Assembly: GCF_022605165.1 (NCBI RefSeq)
Contig: NC_063070.1
Location: 1,488,001-1,552,000 of the forward strand
From: Purpureocillium takamizusanense
Lineage: Eukaryota; Ascomycota; Sordariomycetes; Hypocreales; Ophiocordycipitaceae
Direction of reading: 5' to 3'
Length of the DNA: 64,000 nucleotides
Positions 1 through 9,478 of the stretch are shown piece after piece. The notes under the pieces are model-generated. The model was given only the letters and a program-made list of their open reading frames with translations, had not been told where the DNA came from and searched no databases. The position numbers and the translations under genes were made by a program. Every line of letters starts with the position of its first letter. Position 1 is the stretch's first letter.

Positions 1-3000
1 CAAACAGCCACGGACGGTCCCCAAACACCTTGTTGACGCAGAACTTGTCCCACCCGGGGAGTGTGCGTCCAAAGTTGACGTAGCCGCCGGGGGCGTCCTG
101 AAGGGTTGCGATCGCGAGCGCGCGGGGTGGTCAGCCTTGATGCGCCAACTGCGCGGGGGGTGACAGGGACTAAGTAGGGTGAAGGAGGAAGGGAGGGATA
201 GCTTACAACGGGGTCGCAGGAGAAGAAGCACCCGCCAATGCCGAGACCACCGGCAGGAGAAAACGTGCGAGAGGGATTAAACTTGGGCACGACGAGACGG
301 GCCCGTGGGTCGAGCGGGATGCCAATGGGTGTGCCGCTCCAGAAGCCGACGCCGACGACGAGGATGCGCGTGCTGAGGAGCTTGTCCAGGATGTCCTGCT
401 TGGACGCCAGCCCGTTGGATCGCGCGATGAACTCGACCGGGTCGGGCAGGTATGTCGCGTACGGCCGCTGAGTGGCCATGTACCGCTCTATGGCGTCTTT
501 GTTGACCTTGTCATCGAAGACCATCGGGAGGCGGATGTGCCGGCTGGAGAGCTTCGTCGACGGGCGGTCGGAGCCTAGCTCAGCAGCGAGGACAGCCTTG
601 ACGGCATCGACGAGGCCACGCTGCGGTATCTCGCAGCAGTCATACTCGACCAGGATGCCTGAGAGACGTTAGCAGCAGGGCCCCCTTTTTCAAAGCGCAA
701 GGGACAGATACGGGGGACTTTACTGCAACCGATGGGTGTGGTGAGGCGCACGCCGTTGATCGCGGCGCGGTTAAGGGCCGCTGTCACGGCCTGGACTCGG
801 CATCGGACGTCGAGCTGAAGGGACTGAAGGAGCTCCAACAATATGTACGAGTCTCCGGCCTGTCTGATCGTGGCCTCCTTGTACGTGCCAATGATGGCGG
901 TTGAGTGGCGTGCTATCTCGTCGCGGCACGGGATCGACAGGTCCAGGGGGGTAACGTCGCCTGAGCCGCTCGACACGAGGGCAGATACCCTGTCTATGAA
1001 TACAGCCTGCCTTTTTCGAAGATCCGTGGCGGATTCCATGCGTATCGGAGTGAATCGAAACTTATCTCCCGGTTTCATCTGGCCTACCTTGAACAGCTCC
1101 GCGCGCGGGACCACGTGGGACGTGATAAACCCCCCGAGCGAGGGAGCGTCGGCGGGGAAGATGACGGCCGAGTCGCCGGTCCAGTTCAGAGCCCCCATGG
1201 AGTATGGGTAGTCGAGGTAGTTGCTGGGATGTGAGCCACCCTCTCCACCTGTCTCCCTCGCCCATCGAGGTTGCGGCCCATGGAGGCGCACGCCGATGCG
1301 CGAAGCTTGGTGCGAGACGGTCCAGTCGCTCGTGTAAATGGCGTCGACATCGGCGGGCGTCATGATGTCTGGGGAGTCGTGAGGGCCGGAGAGACAGTAG
1401 ACCACTGACGGGTCCCAAACGGGGATGAGGGAGGTAGAAAGCTGAAAGGGTTCAAAGACTCCCGGGTCGGCAATGTCGAGCATGTCGCCCGCGACGAGTT
1501 GGCGACCCTGAAGCCCGCCAATCTCAACGACGGGGCTTGTCGCCTTTGAGCCGAGATACAAGGGCACCCCAGGAAACCCGCCCTTGATAGCAAGATAGGT
1601 GCGGCACCCCCCCGAAATTGTACCAATGTCCAGCATTGAACCCGCAGAGGCCTCGACGCGCGTGTACATTGGAACCGCGACCCCGTCCAGCTGAGGGTCG
1701 ACCGTCGCCCCGGCCAGTGCGAAGATGGCTCGTTGATGAAACCTGACTTTCGGTCCGGTGAAGGTGGCCTCGAGGAGCTCACAGCCACGGTCGTTGCCGA
1801 CAATGCAGCTGGCTAGCTGGGCATGCAAGGGATCCATAGGACCCGACTCTGGAATACCGAAACCAATGCCAACTCGACCAGGCATGTCCTGGATCGTGGT
1901 GTAGCTTCCTGGGGAGATGACCTCCATCACCCGGAGGGTATACCGGAAGGTGTTGAGAAAGTTTGTCGTCGTCTGCCCCTGTTCAAACGACTGCGAGCTG
2001 AGAATCTTGACCAGAAAGTCGGCGTTGGTCACTATGCCCTGCAGCTTGCTGTCTTGGAGGGCCTGCAGCAGCGCGTCTATCGCCGTCTCTCGACTCTCGC
2101 CATGCCCCATCATCTTGGCTACCAAGGGGTCGTAGGCGAGCGTCACGTTCGTTCCGGTCCGCACCCAGCTGTCGATCCGGATGGACGGCGCGCAGGCGAA
2201 CTCGACGTGCTGTAGTTGCCCTGGGCTGGGCATGTACTCCCGAAGAGGGTTCTCTGCATACACGCGCGCCTCGATGGCGTGTCCAGAGGGAGCCATGCAC
2301 CGTAACTCGTCCAGATCTAGCGGCGCCTCGGCCTGCCTGAGCATCAGCTCGACGAGGTCTATGCCGAAACGCAGCTCGGTGATGCCATGCTCGACTTGGA
2401 GGCGCGTGTTCATCTCCAGAAAGAAGAACTCTGCCGTCTCATCATCGACAAGGTACTCGATGGTCCCCGCAGATCGGTAGCTGATGGTCCGCCCTAGCAG
2501 CTGCGAGACCTCGAGGAGGCGCTTCCGCAGGTGCGGCCGCGACTCAACAAAGGGGCTGGGAGACTCCTCGATGACCTTTTGGTGTCGCCGCTGGATGGAG
2601 CACTCGCGCTCTCCAAGAGCCACGCAATCGCCGCGCCCGTCGCCAAAGATCTGGATTTCGATGTGACGGGACACGGGGTAGTATCGCTCCAAAAAGACGC
2701 CAGGGTTAGAGAAGAGCGCCTTGCCTCGACTCACAACGCTGGTAAAAGAGGAACGGAGTTGCTCCTCATCGTGACATATTAGTAGACCCTGCGTACATCA
2801 GCGCAGCTCTCGACGAGTCTTAAGTATGCTGGTAAAGACTCACCATGCCACCGCCGCCGGCTGTTGCCTTGAGCATAACCTGACACCATCTCAGTCAGTA
2901 AGGGGGCGCGAAAACTCGAAGCATCTCAGCTCACGGGATAGCCGATGCTCGCGGCAGCCAGTGCAGCATCATCCGCTGACTCCAGTATCCCTGAACCGGG

Positions 3001-3387
3001 GCACGTCGGAACACCGACGCTCGCAGCCAGGTCCCTCGCACGGTCCTTGATACCAAAGGTCGCAATGTGCCGCGGCTCGGGTCCGACAAAAGCCGCCCCG
3101 GCATCCTCGACAGCGGTCGCGAACTGCTCGTTCTCGGAAAGGAAGCCGTAGCCGGGGATCACGAAGCGAACGCGGTGCTGTCGTACCAGGGACACGATCT
3201 CGTCGATGCTGGTGTAGGATGAGACGGGGAGTGCGAGATCCGCGCCGGTGACGTGCGGGCTGGAGACATCGTGGGGCGTGTATATCGAGATGGAGTAGTA
3301 GCCCAACCGCTTGGAAGTTTGCAGGATGCGGTTTGCAATCTCGCCGCGGTTGGCGATGAGGAGGCGCCAGCCGGTCTCCTTGGCCAT
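1..3387 (-). CDS. Biotin-dependent carboxylase with KipA and KipI domains (LamA-like / urea carboxylase-like), 3' end beyond window
   Basis: Five exons are visible: 3387-2935, 2879-2844, 2788-724, 658-207 and 97-1, all with GT-AG introns of 55, 55, 65 and 109 bp. The start is the ATG before KETGWRLLIANRGEIANRI, the usual N-terminus of biotin carboxylases. Domains in order: biotin carboxylase (about residues 7-450; YGFLSEN, KATAGGGGM split by introns, EMNTRLQVEH at about 288-297), KipA/AHS2 (from about 453, VISPGSYTTIQDMPG), then KipI/AHS1 (from about 796, FGRTLPGWDKF near the left edge). A C-terminal biotinyl domain is expected outside the window. Urea carboxylase has this architecture, but fungal urea amidolyase also carries an N-terminal allophanate hydrolase, which is absent here. 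With a LamB/YcsF gene 3.8 kb away, the better comparison is the LamA side of the Aspergillus lam locus. Substrate is inferred: a lactam or urea-like amide, ATP- and bicarbonate-dependent, probably cytosolic. Confidence 0.88.
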
Positions 3388-5172
3388 TTGATGACGCCGC
3401 GCTTTCAGACCTTGAATAAGTGCTCTAGGGTGTGAGAGAATGAAAGAGGCGGAGGCTAAGGGGACCAAGCAGAAGCATCGAATATAAGTGAACCGGTCGC
3501 AATCCTGGGCCAACCGAGTGTTGAGGCCGCCTTTTTAGCGGCGCTCTTCCCGCCATGAATTGGCCATCTAGTCCCCCGCGGACGTAAGAGGCAGGTCGTG
3601 GAAACGCTATTCGTGAGCCCGAGATGGGAATGGCCGCCGCCAGGCATCGTGGCGATGCGTCCTCACGGAGTTTGAACACGGTCAGTCAAGCCGGTGGGGG
3701 AACAAGTGCCCAATGATTTCGCCACGATGAGTATGCACATGGCGCACGCAGGGTATGTTAAAAGGGTGCAATGCTGAGAAGCGGCCCGAAGAGGGCATCT
3801 CCACGACGTTGGTGGAGAAGCCCAATGATGCCCTCTCACGATTACCGGCGCAGCAGCCTTCGTTTGCTAGGCCTATGTCGTGTGCATATATGATTACAAG
3901 GCGAGCAAGACCCTTGCACTGTATGGTACTCGCAACGCAGCCCGAGTGCCGCTGACCTCAGGATGGATGTCGTGGAGATGGCCTTGGTCGGGAAGTGTCT
4001 ACGACGAGCCTCAATGGCCATCATTCGTCATCACCTTGGGAGGCTCAAGCAGCCGCACAGCCGCCGCAAGCCTTCACAAACGCGCCGTCGCAGGCTCTTT
4101 TGCACGTTTACATTTCATAGACAGGGCGTCTTGAAGTTGGGCGACGGTGACACCCACCTGTGACAGGGGCTAGGTAAGTAGGCTCCGCAATCGTTTTCGT
4201 GTCACTGTTACACAGCGCAGACATCCTTTTGCCTTAGACTCCTTCGATGCGTTGCCTCGTTATTACCCCGCCGTCGGAGAGGGCGGGGGAGGTGGTTCAA
4301 TCCTCGGCAGCGTCCAGCAGCGTCTTCTTCCACTGCACTGCACGTGCCCATCAATGGCCGCGCTAGGGGTTCTCGAGACCGCACCAACAACCTAGGTACT
4401 GGATGTTCAAGCTTATTTCAATCGCTAGGGTACGAAACGAGGCCCGTGCTTCACCCGACGTGGGCTCACGCGTGGCCTCGCGCCATTCATCCGTCCGTTC
4501 GTCCGTCCGAGGCGCTATACATCGCGCTTCCAATGTTGCGTAACAGAAAGACATTCAACAGCAGGCAGGGCCCCTCCCGGCAAACCACGCCACCCCTCAA
4601 CATGAATCGTCGGAGTTCCCCGCAATTGCGCCAAAACGTCCCGGGCTTGGCGAGCGTGAGGAGACGAGAGGGAGGGCAAGGAGGGCTGGCTGATGCAGAA
4701 CTGGATGCATCGAAATGACCCAACCGCCGCCGCCGCCGCCGCTCCACCACCGGAATGGAGTCAATGGCAGTGGAAGCCACGCGAAACGTGGTGCCTTTTA
4801 TTCAGCGAGGTGACTCCACTGGCTGCGGAGCGAGAGACTCCCGTCATGACGTCTTGTTGTGGGTGCCCTGTGCAACTCGCTTTCAAGCTCTTTCGTCTCG
4901 GCAGTGGGCAGGACGTGCCGTGCCGTGTAACGTGTCGAGACATTGATCTTTGGCAGCGGACTGAACGGAATCCACGCAATCTCAACTTTGCGGCGCAGTG
5001 AGCCCGACGCACTCTGTGTCTCCAGTGAGCGTATTGTGACTCTTGTCTCTCCCTTAACTGCCCTGCCTCCCGTCCCTTGTGTGCTGTGTCGGCCACATCA
5101 GACCGTTGGCTGTATACCTTCAACGACTAGCGGACATTGAGGTTCAAGGCAGGACACGGTTGGGCCACCACC
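3388..5172. other. Divergent promoter region between the LamA-like and amidase genes
   Basis: This 1.8 kb stretch separates two divergently transcribed start codons, so it must contain both promoters. I see no ORF with a recognisable product. An ATTGG (CCAAT on the minus strand) lies at 3559-3563, about 170 bp upstream of the carboxylase start. A GCC-type trinucleotide run sits near 4727-4742 and degenerate CCGT units near 4490-4512. TAGGTA occurs at 4171-4176 and CCTAGGTA near 4391. No specific pathway-regulator site can be assigned by eye. Confidence 0.5.
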
Positions 5173-7074
5173 ATGGAGGTATCGTGGCAGTCTGTGGCAG
5201 AGGTTGGTCACTGTCTTCTCTCTCTCTCACGTTGCTGAAGTCGTGATGGCTTACGAAAAAGAATCCAGCGCTTCCAAAAGCACCGCGCTGCCGCCATACC
5301 GCCTCGCTGGGTGATCCCGCCCAAGAAGCTCGAGGAGACGCAGCGCTCAACCACCAGGCCGCTCGACCTTCTCCCACGCCTGCTCTCCCACCATGAGCTG
5401 CAAATCACCTCTCTGGGGGCGGGCGCCCTCGCGCAAGCCATACGCACCGGCGCCTTTTCCTGCCTGCAGGTCACCGAGGCCTTTTGTCACCAGGCCGCCG
5501 TCGCCCAGCAGCTGACCAACTGTCTCACCGAGATCTTCTTCACCGAGGCCATGGATCGCGCGCGCCAGCTTGACGACCTGCTCATCGCCAACAAGGGAAA
5601 GCCCATCGGGCCGCTTCACGGCGTGCCCGTCTCCATCAAGGATCACATCAATGTCAAAGGCCAGCACACCACGTCGGGGTACGTCGCCTATGCGGAGAAG
5701 AGCACCCCCAAGGACGAGGACGCGCCGCTCGTCGCGTCGCTGCGGGAGGCCGGCGCCGTTCTCTACTGCAAGACAAACAACCCGCAGTGCATGATGGTCC
5801 TCGAGACGGTCAACAACATCTACGGCCGCACGCTGAACCCCTGGAACACCAATCTTGGCGCCGGCGGCTCCAGCGGTGGCGAGGGCGCTTTGCTGGCCCA
5901 GCACGGGTCGCCTTTGGGCGTCGGAACGGACATTGGCGGCTCCATCCGCATCCCGGCCGCGTTCAATGGTCTCTACAGCTTTAAGCCGTCGGCCAAGCGC
6001 GTCTCCTCGGGCGGCTGGGAGTTGACGCTCACCGGACAGGAGTCCATCCACGCGGTCGCCGGCCCTCTCGGACACAACGTCGAAGACCTCGATCTCTTCC
6101 TGCAGGTCGTCACGGATGCCAAGCCGTGGTTGAGGGAGCCGCTTCTCAAGATGCCCTGGCAGTCGCAGATTGCGGCTATGCAAGGACACAAGCTAACGGT
6201 CGGTGTCATGCTGTGGGACGAAGTCGTGATGCCGCACCCCTACATCACGAGAGTCATCAAGGATGTGGCCACAAAGCTGGATGCAGCTGGGCATGAAGGC
6301 AGGGCCCGCATTCCTATTCTGAGGCGTCCCCGTCCCTCGTGCTGACTGACGGTGTTGCAGTGATCCCTTTTAAGCCGTTTGACCACAAGCGCGCCTGGGA
6401 GGAAATCCTGCTGCCCCTCTATTTCACGGACGGCGGCTTGGATATCAAGCAGACGCTTTTTGCAGGCAACGAGCCCATCTTCCCCGCGGCAAAGCGGCTG
6501 CTGGACGACCCCATCGTGCAGCGGCGCATGGTCCAGGAGGTTTGGCAGGTAAGCAAGCCGCCAGCTCTCCGGTTCGGCATCGTGGCTAGACCTGGTTTGC
6601 TGACCCAGGCTCACCCAGTTCAACAAAGCTCGGGATGCTTACCGGGTGGCGTACCTCCGCAAGTGGGCCGAAACATCCAAGCAGACGGCATCGGGCAGGC
6701 CCATTGACGTGCTCATCTGCCCCGTGGCCGGCCTGAACGGCGCGCCGCACGACAAGATGCCGTGGTGGGGATACGCCGCGCAGTGGAACCTCCTCGACTA
6801 TCCATGCGGCGTGCTGCCCGCCGGCACCGTGCTACAGAGTGATGAGTATCCCAAGGGATACGAGCCCGTCAATGATCTGGACAGGGAGAATATGGATCTT
6901 TGTGAGTTGAGGCCGCACGGTCGCCCCTCTACTCACCCATCACTGACTTTGTGCGCAGATGACAACAAGGTGTACCGTGATATGCCCGTTGCAATTCAGG
7001 TTGTTGGGCCGACACACGAGGACGAAAAGGTTCTTGGCGCAATGAGCGTCATTAACACGGTCGTGAAGGGGTAG
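5173..7074 (+). CDS. Acetamidase-type amidase (amidase signature family, amdS-like)
   Basis: Hydrolyses a carboxamide to acid plus ammonia; cytosolic nitrogen scavenging. Exons: 5173-5202, 5269-6298, 6361-6548, 6619-6901, 6959-7074, giving 548 aa, the same length as classical fungal acetamidases. The 10-codon first exon (MEVSWQSVAE) is joined to RFQKHRAAAIPPRW, which restores the usual N-terminus and is why I prefer the ATG at 5173 to the GTG at 5311. The Ser-cisSer-Lys triad is visible: Lys in VSIKDH, Ser in GAGGSSGGEGAL, Ser in GVGTDIGGSIRIP. The second intron (6299-6360) starts with GC rather than GT. It is divergent from the carboxylase gene and convergent with the LamB/YcsF gene (93 bp between stop codons). 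The family is certain; the exact amide used is not. Confidence 0.93.
6299..6360 (+). other. Non-canonical GC-AG intron in the amidase gene
   Basis: The exon ends ...CATGAAG, the intron begins GCAGGG, contains a TGCTGAC branch-like site and ends GTTGCAG. Splicing here gives GHEVIPFKPF in frame. No GT donor near this point restores the frame. AAG|GC is the common GC-AG donor context. Confidence 0.75.
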
Positions 7075-7166
7075 GGTAGGTGCTGATGTCTCCAGCTATG
7101 TCTCAGCGTCTAGAGCAAAGTCTAGCCATGGAAGCCAAAGAAGAATGAAACGGCGAGCCCATCATC

Positions 7167-8143
7167 TCAAGATCCTGGGAAACACTCCTTGTTGAAGTCA
7201 TCCACTGCCTGCCGCGTTGTGGCCGCCACCCCCGTTGCCCCAGGCGTGTCGCTGTGGATGCACAGACTCAGCGGTGCGGCGCCTAATTTGAGATCCACCA
7301 TCTCCTTCTTCTCCTTGCTCTCAATCGTGCCCGTCCGTAGTACTCCCCGGAGCCGTAGCCGTAGTGCCGACAGGTCGACTGCCTCGTGCGTCCTCGATAT
7401 TATACAGTCGCCGCTCTCGTCGTACTCGAGATCCGCAATAATCTCCTGCACGAACGGGATGCCCATCTCGGCGCACACCGACTCCATGAACGTGCCCGAG
7501 GCGCCAATCATGGGCACCGGGGTGCCGTCCGGAGTGGTGAAGTGTCGCGCGGCCCGGCAGACGGCCTCGCAGATTGACTTGTCCTTGCACATGACGCCAT
7601 AAAGCGCGCCGTGCGGCTGAACGTGAACATGTCAGATTGAGACGACCACCATCATCTTATGAAATGAACTGGAAAGGCAGCGATGGATAAATGGGGTGGG
7701 AAAACGTACACTGACGTGGGACAGTGGAATGCCCTCGATATCGAGAAATGCTTTGAGGGCACCGATTTGGTAAATGACCATCTTCTCGCACTCGAGCGGA
7801 TCCATCTTCATCTCGCGGCGCCCGAAGCCCTGCAGGTCCAGGAACGAGGGATGCGCACCGACGCGCACACCGTGGCGCCGCGCCGCCCGGACCGTCTTGT
7901 ACATGACCAAGGGGTCGCCAGCGTGGAAGCCGCAGGCGATGGAGCAGGATGTGATGTGCGGCATGATGGCTTCGTCGTCTCCCTGTTATTTCACAGCCGT
8001 GTTAGCGCCTCGTATGCCGGCCCCAAACAACAAGACCTGCGACGGGGTGCTGCCACCATTGTCCAGTTGCCAAACGCCTCGCCCATGTCGCAGTGAATCT
8101 CCACGGGTTTGGACGCCCACTTGAGCGCTGCTGTGTCGGCCAT
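7167..8143 (-). CDS. LamB/YcsF family protein (5-oxoprolinase subunit A / PxpA-like)
   Basis: Exons 8143-8057, 7982-7710 and 7616-7167 encode 269 aa, normal for LamB/YcsF (about 250). Conserved blocks are clear: EIHCDMGEAFGNWTMGDDEA with MPHITSCSIACGFHAGDP, then VRVGAHPSFLDLQGFGRREM and HVSPHGALYG across the second intron. Bacterial PxpA works with PxpB (KipI) and PxpC (KipA) as ATP-dependent 5-oxoprolinase. The fungal founder, lamB of Aspergillus nidulans, is needed for 2-pyrrolidinone use. Here the KipA and KipI partners are fused behind a biotin carboxylase in the gene at 1-3387. I infer that the two proteins act together on a lactam, probably cytosolically. The C-terminal part (CIHSDTPGA) is intact and nothing suggests decay. 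Confidence 0.9.
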
Positions 8144-9478
8144 GGTATATCTGACTGAGCTTTCTTCTTTCCTTGGCTGTCGGGAAAGTATCGAGACGAC
8201 GTTGCAACGCGTGCTCAGGCAAGGTTGAGCGCGATGTCAAGTTTGGGCTTCTTGGAGAAAGCACAGAGCACAGATAACTGGGAAGGGGAAGGCCTCATAT
8301 CGTGTCGCTCGTGGAGGACGCAGGGATGCGGCTCGTTCCACGAGGCGACTAACCGCGAGGCCGTTGAAGCGAGGCGTGGATATCCGACATGACGGGCCAA
8401 CCCTTGGTAAATCGAGGTCGCAGGTCGTCTTCGAGTATTTGATACCCAGGTTGTCGTCGTCGTGGAAATATACCGAATCAGGAAATCGGGGAGCCACTTC
8501 CCCAGAATCCCCAAGGCCCCAGCCGCCACCTCCAGAGATCCAGTCCAGGACTCCAGAATCCACGTGCAGTCCCGCTGCCGGGCCAGACTGCCGGAGACAA
8601 GCAGCCGCAGCGCTTGTTGTGTTGGTCTCGTGTCATTGCGTGGCCGTCCCTGGTCCCACCTCGTGCCCCCGTGGTATGCCAATCTTGGCACCATGGCTGA
8701 CACCAGACAGCACATGGTCCGGAAGAGAGTGTGTGGCACAAGGCGGCCATGCGCACGCCTGGGATATCTTTGGCTCTTGCACAGTTGGCCCCAATGTGTA
8801 CTTGATAATCCCTTGTCGGCAGTCGTCTGCAGGTCCCAAAGGCAGGCAGCCGACGTTGGTGTCGCACACACGTCGGGCCGCCGCTGGTGAAGTCCGATAT
8901 AGCCTCTCCTACGACCATCTCTCTATGAGTCTAGAGGTATCCTTCGATACAACAATCAATGCGGGGTGGCGAGCATCAGGTCGGACTGGGCTGTGCCGGA
9001 CGCGCGAGGGCGTCGCGGGTGAGGCTTCTATTTTTCGTGGCATCCTTCTCGAGCTCAGCATCTCGATCTGCGGTCGATCTCAAGCTTTACTCAACCGATG
9101 TATGCTACAGAAGCAGGAAAGGGTAATTAAATTGCTGTATAGTATTATATCAATCAGAGGGGCAGCGTCGTGGGCTCCGTGATCGCGTCCAACATCAATA
9201 ATAATACAAGGCACGTCCACATCAATCAGACGGCATTCTGAGGAGGGCCTACATCACTTTCATCATTCTCATGTGCGTTGCTCTTTTTATTCACGATTTT
9301 CAGTCTTTGTCAGGCCCAAAGGTGCCCGGCACTGTGATCTCCTGTTCAAGTTCAATTGATGAAAAACTCAACAGCGGACTGACGCCTTTAGCCCCACGGA
9401 GCCCGCCAACCTCCGGCCACACCAGCCAAGCTTGGTGATCAGAGATCGACGTCACATCTACCGATGGGCGACTGGGTG

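Follow-up and report, generated by a model that had tools for sequence, protein, structure and literature searches.

Why would a fungus whose genome already encodes a urea amidolyase carry another protein with the domain order of a urea carboxylase, close to a gene of the LamB/YcsF family? The question arises at the start of a 64,000-nucleotide stretch of the Purpureocillium takamizusanense genome (NCBI RefSeq assembly GCF_022605165.1, 35.57 Mb in 14 contigs; contig NC_063070.1, positions 1,488,001 to 1,552,000, written G000:C3:1488001-1552000 and hereafter called the window). Three adjacent genes there encode a biotin carboxylase (BC) fused to KipA- and KipI-like domains (LamA2), an amidase-signature enzyme and a LamB/YcsF protein (LamB2). 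An initial annotation, made from the letters alone, had proposed that the first and third products split a lactam ring, by homology to the PxpABC parts of bacterial 5-oxoprolinase and by analogy with the lam locus of Aspergillus nidulans, and that the amidase handles amides, all under shared nitrogen control. Spliced models and Pfam confirm the three genes where they had been placed (LamA2 with 1213 amino acids, the amidase with 548 and LamB2 with 269).

Our analysis modestly favors reading LamA2 and LamB2 as a two-enzyme, ATP- and biotin-dependent system that would open an amide ring. The proposed partnership of the first and third products is supported, since their parts are again found side by side in a second pair on contig C4 and along gene runs of bacteria and archaea, and since lamA and lamB are genes of lactam catabolism in A. 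nidulans (PMC8016842; here and below, statements about cited papers refer to the available parts of their text). Carboxylation is preferred over phosphorylation because the carboxyltransferase lysine (Lys1605 in the numbering of Kluyveromyces lactis urea carboxylase), a complete BC and a biotin carrier lie in one chain. A simple identity with PxpABC does not hold, since LamA2 has a full biotin carboxylase system with its carrier and scores 123.6 bits against the 500-bit cut-off of the PxpC equivalog NF045499 (123.6-158.9 over the proteins scanned).

The carboxyltransferase site of LamA2

Lys1605 is the most likely carboxyltransferase base of K. lactis urea carboxylase (PMC5770610). Guanidine carboxylases have been called by requiring Asp1584 and separated from urea carboxylases by Asp1330 (PMC11410670), a position that is Asn in the latter (PMC12186494). 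We located the K. lactis positions by counting along solved-structure alignments, and we aligned LamA2 with its paralogue LamA1, the genome's urea amidolyase and 119 homologues (the 120 best-listed rows minus LamA2), 115 rows of which span the site. At the place of Asp1584, LamA2 has a gap, with no acidic residue in VVGVGFWSGTPIG. The aspartate is absent from all 115 LamA-type homologue rows that span the site; an acidic residue 5-7 places from the gap or nearer occurs in 9 of the 115 and not in LamA2. Lys1605 is Lys in every one of these 115 rows, and LamA2 thus retains the general base of urea carboxylase, as Lys977. Position 1330 is Asn in 114 homologues and Ile, Ser and Asp in one each (two uncovered); LamA2 has Asn there, not the Asp of guanidine carboxylases. 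Asp1584 itself is present in K. lactis, in the genome's urea amidolyase and in 6 of 6 bacterial 'uca' proteins.

Family models tell a similar story. LamA2 matches the domain order of the urea carboxylase model TIGR02712 (BC, CT_A_B, CT_C_D, biotinyl), and both LamA2 (1244.6) and LamA1 (1211.1) miss its cut-off of 1303.85, as do all six scanned fungal proteins (1183.5-1300.6, the lowest, P0144, being a shortened model); four bacterial positive controls score 1811-1968. The nearest solved structures to LamA2 are nevertheless K. lactis urea carboxylase and urea amidolyase, and many of its homologues are named urea carboxylase in the database. The BC residues and the biotin lysine are retained in nearly all homologue rows that cover them, so the LamA2 carboxylase looks working, judging from these residues. 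LamA2 combines what we take to define a LamB-partnered biotin carboxyltransferase: Asp1584 absent, Lys1605 present, BC plus biotin carboxyl carrier protein (BCCP), and LamB nearby.

Partnership with LamB in prokaryotes

Prokaryote genomes were scanned with the transferase region of the fungal protein, using two narrow patterns; 134 stretches matched, and three loci were confirmed. Plasmid regions were drawn from the best 40 of 601 LamB records (14 regions) and the best 40 of 731 transferase records (11 regions). Because PLSDB gene tables are incomplete, LamB and BC presence was checked by tblastn in 28 prokaryote regions. Among transferases found through transferase searches, LamB/PxpA lies nearby in 5 of the 6 without Asp1584 (Dethiobacter, Agrobacterium MA01, Paenarthrobacter, Methylobacterium radiotolerans and Rhizobium NIBRBAC) and in 0 of the 8 that bear it; three more Asp1584-less rows, found through LamB, are excluded from this count. 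Allophanate hydrolase and/or urea-amidolyase-associated proteins adjoin six of the eight Asp1584-bearing transferases and are seen at neither L022 nor L023, the latter ending at a contig end with one flank unseen.

One counterpart of the fungal system is the Asp1584-less Dethiobacter locus (L024), where KipI, KipA, BCCP, BC and LamB form one run and the BC and LamB open frames overlap, that is, the fungal parts unfused. The remaining two scan loci have Asp1584 and no LamB was found there; the fused fungal form occurs in none of the three loci confirmed with the two patterns. In the plasmid set, 6 of 11 transferase regions encode a fused 'uca' protein that keeps both Asp1584 and Lys1605, none with LamB, and the five split regions have LamB in four and BC in two. 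Of the 14 LamB regions, 10 contain BC by tblastn (Methylobacterium, Sulfitobacter, Shinella twice, Rhizobium, Bradyrhizobium, Agrobacterium, Pseudomonas aeruginosa, Haladaptatus, which is an archaeon, and Klebsiella, with an insertion element in between); it was not found within ~4.5 kb in the LamB stretches of Thermus, Azospirillum, Leisingera and Pseudoalteromonas. Lys at 1605 is shared by LamA and the long KipI of Methylobacterium, Sulfitobacter, Haladaptatus, Dethiobacter, Agrobacterium MA01, Rhodococcus and Paenarthrobacter, and BC lies in the stretch in five of these seven, not in Rhodococcus and Paenarthrobacter.

Some of these neighborhoods have features of their own. In Rhizobium sp. 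NIBRBAC000502774 (L049 6406-9322), two LamB/YcsF genes flank accC in one gene run. Two hydantoinase A/B-like open frames, recognized by eye, follow shortly after the Dethiobacter run (L024 9615-13957). On Paenarthrobacter pYJN5-2 (L047 1-3044), genes for a class III aminotransferase and an aldehyde dehydrogenase adjoin LamB and the Asp1584-less transferase, which fits an expected route from lactam to omega-amino acid to diacid. An amidase-signature gene and a class III aminotransferase gene adjoin LamB-BC-KipI-KipA in Haladaptatus (L037 1452-4338), echoing the fungal amidase linkage. The split Asp1584-bearing carboxyltransferase at L022 (4833-7919) adjoins an isochorismatase-like hydrolase (by eye), without LamB, and is possibly a split enzyme of urea or guanidine type.

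LamB2 and the second lam pair

LamB2 belongs to the family to which PxpA belongs, with one change at a likely active-site position. Its motif reads HVSPHG where the family has H[VI]KPHG, and among the matches listed the KPHG lysine is Ser in 18 of 18 members of the LamB2 clade and Lys in 100 of 100 others; ten further conserved acidic or histidine positions that we checked are unchanged. This replacement, found throughout the clade, suggests a ring substrate other than that of LamB1. The LamB proteins of the BC operons of Rhizobium (L032 4501-5268, HISFHA) and Bradyrhizobium (L033 4501-5292, HMSFHG) also have Ser at this place, which may point to more than one origin of the change. The LamB2 ortholog P0007 (241.4) and LamB1 (233.6) both pass the PxpA subfamily cut-off of 226 (NF003814).

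LamA1 and LamB1 on contig C4 are transcribed divergently, 564 bases apart. The A. nidulans lamA and lamB genes are likewise divergently transcribed, according to the Pfam family text. Because this lam-type layout is found on C4, the window pair is best described, from layout and sequence comparison, as a diverged paralogue of LamA1/LamB1 and not as the lam locus itself. The lam parallel drawn for the window thus holds for the parts, which recur on C4, and not for the arrangement, since in the window both genes of the pair run in one direction with the amidase between them. A bacterial transfer of LamB2 was considered, prompted by the matches listed past 20 clade rows, which are ~46-53% identical to LamB2 (the named ones bacterial), compared with only 42% identity between LamB1 and LamB2. 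It was dropped since a tree of 42 rows joins LamB1 and LamB2 in one clade (support 96/81), with LamB1 on a long branch (2.12).

The amidase and its linkage to the pair

The description of the amidase as amdS-type is right at the family level: Pfam assigns PF01425 (Amidase, 1.1e-102), and the Lys134/Ser211/Ser235 triad is retained. Identity to matches named acetamidase or general amidase is 41-44%, and to the Beauveria bassiana ortholog, an 'acetamidase-like protein', 64%. A genome search gave 44 exon-level amidase matches at ~24 loci, so chance adjacency is an issue and the linkage argument rests on other fungi.

We read linkage from locus tags in match lists of 120 rows of 90%-identity clusters each, in which absences are no proof. 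LamA2 and LamB2 lie within four tag numbers of each other in at least seven assemblies (Purlil1, ACCO45, CDD83, HIM, VTK73DRAFT, V2A60 and FQN57), and an amidase tag is present in three of these among the matches listed. In all three it lies between the pair: Cordyceps sp. RAO-2017 (CDD83_1091-1093), Phialemonium thermophilum of the Cephalothecales (VTK73DRAFT_3708-3710) and Myotisia sp. PD_48 of the Onygenales (FQN57_004622/004621/004619), which together span two fungal classes. The amidase adjoins LamA2 in Beauveria gryllotalpidicola (MY11210_009338/009339); in Beauveria mimosiformis (MY10362) LamA2 and LamB2 are on separate short contigs, which is uninformative. Expected conservation of the whole cluster in relatives is therefore borne out for the LamA2-LamB2 pair and only in part for the amidase, which joins it in at least three other fungi while pair and amidase also occur apart. 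From these tags, the amidase linkage is conserved but optional.

A proposed reaction and its alternatives

Lactam hydrolysis is uphill, and the lam substrate of A. nidulans is 2-pyrrolidinone. In the reaction that we propose, the BC domain would form carboxybiotin from ATP and bicarbonate, and the carrier would deliver it to the KipA/KipI site, with Lys977 as general base. This site, without Asp1584, would carboxylate the ring nitrogen of a lactam-like amide in place of urea, and N-carboxylation would activate the ring carbonyl as allophanate formation does urea. LamB2, by fold a metal-dependent amide hydrolase, could then open the N-carboxylated ring, after which the carbamate would lose CO2, yielding an amino acid that could be transaminated. 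The least certain step is that of the amidase, which may trim a carboxamide on compounds of this class, either ahead of ring opening or afterwards. Solved entry 9yx5 lists KipI- and KipA-like chains and the alpha3 subunit of a biotin-dependent carboxylase (by identical sequence) and is, judging from chain names, a structural precedent. The wider proposal we hold to be close to an even call: fungal 'urea carboxylases' without an allophanate hydrolase domain and split prokaryote transferases with Lys1605 and no Asp1584 may be lactam (cyclic amide) N-carboxylases that, with LamB/PxpA, open rings by carboxylation and then hydrolysis, distinct from the phosphorylation of PxpABC and OPLAH, the window cluster being a paralogous version for another ring with an amidase of its own.

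Several observations weigh against these proposals. Asn698 of LamA2 corresponds to Asn1330, so a urea-type residue is retained, and one fungal protein, P0155, falls below the urea carboxylase cut-off by merely 3 bits. The prokaryote regions were hand-picked, as annotated and diverse, and not random, and the numbers are small; for the Asp1584-less pair of Rhodococcus, no LamB lies within 5 kb. Short KipI proteins of PxpB type, some within BC operons and some not, lack Asp1584 in 9 of 9 aligned and have Arg at 1605, even in the BC-linked operons of Rhizobium, Bradyrhizobium, Shinella and P. aeruginosa pCF39S. A rule that no Asp1584 means biotin dependence failed on these nine proteins, and because they share the loss, it is, by this comparison, a mark of LamB partnership more than of carboxylation. 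Biotin-free PxpABC opens 5-oxoproline with ATP, phosphorylation being assumed (PMC13274462), and the available literature gave us no measured reaction for a LamA-type enzyme.

These points bear most directly on a PxpABC-type 5-oxoprolinase, in which KipA/KipI would phosphorylate the ring oxygen and LamB2 would hydrolyze the product, leaving the fused BC and carrier idle in ring opening. LamB2's ortholog and LamB1 do exceed the PxpA cut-off, the biotin-free system functions in bacteria (PMC13274462), the missing Asp1584 is common to LamA and short PxpB, and BC is absent within ~4.5 kb from 4 of 14 LamB regions. We nevertheless consider this unlikely: an idle domain would lose its residues, and the BC catalytic residues, biotin lysine and carboxyltransferase base are retained across the fungal set; moreover, PxpB has Arg where LamA has Lys1605, and the PxpC equivalog scores fall far short of the cut-off. 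That LamA2 is a true carboxylase of urea or guanidine, with the neighboring amidase as its allophanate hydrolase, is very improbable. Shared domain order, the nearest solved structures, the names of many homologues, Asn1330 and the adjoining amidase-family gene all speak for it, but Asp1584 is absent, position 1330 is not Asp, and the TIGR02712 score is under the cut-off. Orthologs of the window amidase (P0241, 94% identical to it, P0250 and P0254) score 101.5, 100.7 and 103.7 against an allophanate hydrolase cut-off of 511.05 (TIGR02713), and the genome encodes, in addition, a urea amidolyase in which both Asp1584 and Lys1605 are present.

The other two alternatives overlap with carboxylation-driven ring opening or limit it. 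A cyclic imide, hydantoin or ureide as the ring opened, with the amidase in the pathway, would make 'lactam' the wrong name. The Lys-to-Ser change throughout the LamB2 clade and in Rhizobium and Bradyrhizobium, and the amidase-family gene near LamB-BC-KipIA in Haladaptatus, point that way; direct evidence for such a substrate is lacking and the ten other LamB positions are unchanged, so we find it doubtful, if somewhat less so than the phosphorylation route. A stronger contender, still short of our preference, is that the amidase is an unrelated neighbor and the functional unit is LamA2-LamB2 only. Among the matches listed, Metarhizium, Conoideocrella, Epichloe, Ustilaginoidea and others show an amidase ortholog and no LamA2/LamB2, and the pair appears without the amidase in Tolypocladium paradoxum and Drechmeria coniospora; in Hirsutella minnesotensis the pair has consecutive tags (HIM_03488/HIM_03489). 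Against this stands the amidase tag between the pair in the Cordyceps, Phialemonium and Myotisia genomes, across two classes.

Relation to known systems

In A. nidulans, AmdR controls amdS, gatA, gabA, lamA and lamB (PMC8016842). The window resembles that system (PMC8016842, PMC3412718) in pairing LamB/YcsF with LamA and in the presence of an amdS-family gene, amdS being in the same AmdR regulon there; the C4 pair is also divergent. Unlike it, the window pair is non-divergent and amidase-split, and LamB2 has Ser for Lys. We take A. nidulans lamA to be the 1241-amino-acid 'urea carboxylase' of Strope et al. The fungal urea carboxylase group of that survey (PMC3073912) matches LamA2 in domain order, length and occurrence in Pezizomycotina with or without urea amidolyase, whereas the Asp1584 loss and LamB partnership of LamA2 argue against urea function. 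Strope et al. assume urea function, and their main text is silent on lactam and lamA; they report 'urea carboxylase' in urease-bearing fungi, with no allophanate hydrolase listed for A. nidulans, A. fumigatus and A. terreus, and its role there is unstated in the available text (PMC3073912). The split pair has been noted as unstudied (PMC3199775).

LamA2 and LamB2 share with PxpABC (PMC13274462) the PxpA family of LamB2, the PxpB/PxpC homology of KipI/KipA and the absence of Asp1584, and differ in having BC and a biotin carrier in one chain, Lys1605 where short PxpB has Arg, and a score far under the PxpC cut-off. With guanidine and urea carboxylases (TIGR02712; PMC11410670, PMC5770610) LamA2 has in common the architecture of BC, carboxyltransferase and BCCP and the Lys1605 base, and it differs in lacking Asp1584, in Asn rather than Asp at 1330 and in its gene neighbors. 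Caprolactamase, of another family, requires ATP and bicarbonate; CapAB and eukaryotic 5-oxoprolinase (PMC8453981) are alike in ATP-driven lactam opening, and CapAB in its bicarbonate need, but they are hydantoinase-type proteins of other families. A biotin-dependent lactam carboxylase was named in no title or abstract found by our literature search, whose coverage left out most subscription journals. For CapAB and eukaryotic 5-oxoprolinase we know of no biotin carrier.

Taken with the alignments, these comparisons suggest that the LamA-type fungal family is widespread and probably misnamed urea carboxylase. There is a precedent in guanidine carboxylase, where a large 'urea carboxylase' set has a different substrate (PMC12186494). 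If the proposed reaction is true, that story would be repeated, and the A. nidulans lam genes of 1989-1992 would gain a chemistry. For the role of fungal 'urea carboxylases' without allophanate hydrolase, the lost Asp together with the LamB partnership offers an assayable answer.

Gene models and regulation

Coordinates are collected in the table below. The BC-KipA-KipI identity given to LamA2 stands, and its end at base 1 does not: the last 694 bases, which encode the biotin carrier motif AMKM, lie beyond the window, so a truncated protein had been described. Pfam finds Biotin_carb_N, CPSase_L_D2, Biotin_carb_C, CT_A_B (2.6e-74), CT_C_D (6.7e-27) and Biotin_lipoyl (1.6e-08) in LamA2, and LamB_YcsF (PF03746, 2.5e-78) in LamB2. 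The LamA2 model is 100% identical to database protein P0121 across 1213 amino acids, and Purpureocillium lilacinum matches are 86% (LamA2), 94% (amidase) and 92-93% (LamB2) identical. In the spliced models the amidase lies on the strand opposite to both its neighbors. Its second intron (6299-6360) has a GC donor, and the spliced product aligns full-length to the P. lilacinum ortholog.

Table. Coordinates of the window genes and related loci. Unless a locus is named, positions count from the first base of the window; positions below 1 precede it, 0 being G000:C3:1488000.
Feature	Position	Strand	Basis
LamA2, BC-KipA(CT_A_B)-KipI(CT_C_D)-BCCP carboxylase	1..3387, on to -693 (G000:C3:1487307)	-	splice model, Pfam, identical database protein P0121
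LamA2 exons	ATG 3387; 3387-2935, 2879-2844, 2788-724, 658-207, 97 to -207, -294 to -370, -440 to -693	-	splice model
LamA2 exon 3: remaining biotin carboxylase, whole KipA-like CT_A_B, start of KipI-like CT_C_D	724..2788	-	splice model, Pfam
LamA2 exon 4: VVGVG-FWSG (no Asp at the K. lactis Asp1584 place), PKFNPSR (Lys977 = K. lactis Lys1605)	207..658	-	alignments
Divergent intergenic region LamA2/amidase, 1785 bases	3388..5172	.	HGATAR and direct-repeat scans
Amidase-signature enzyme, 548 aa, 5 exons	5173..7074: 5173-5202, 5269-6298, 6361-6548, 6619-6901, 6959-7074	+	splice model, Pfam
LamB2 (LamB/YcsF = PxpA family), 269 aa, 3 exons	7167..8143: 8143-8057, 7982-7710, 7616-7167	-	splice model, Pfam
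LamA1, 1248 aa	L018 (G000:C4:1040001-1050000) 7545-3628	-	divergent pair with LamB1
LamB1, 257 aa	L018 (G000:C4:1040001-1050000) 8110-8951	+	divergent pair with LamA1
Urea amidolyase	L021 (G000:C3:1322501-1331500), contig C3		one long open frame, biotin lysine outside it

In the genome's urea amidolyase, Asp1584 and Lys1605 are retained, yet the residue aligned with K. lactis Asn1330 is Ser. Three loci of hydantoinase B type, the family of eukaryotic 5-oxoprolinase, were also seen (G000:C6:739890-741560, C4:2645251-2646938 and C6:1248783-1249927); in the match at C6:1248783 the scanned frame is broken by four stops, which may reflect introns or decay.

Shared nitrogen control, as initially suggested, found no sequence support: the 1785-base region has 0 HGATAR (AreA) sites where 500 shuffles average 2.1, which is weak evidence either way. 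There are 0 in the LamA1-LamB1 intergenic region and 2 upstream of LamB2 against 1.8 expected, with no excess in either; no direct repeats of at least 14 were found in the LamA2-amidase divergent region. A gene for a regulator with Zn2Cys6 and Fungal_trans_2 domains (~-2800 to -981, plus strand, L017) lies tail to tail with LamA2 and is a candidate local regulator.

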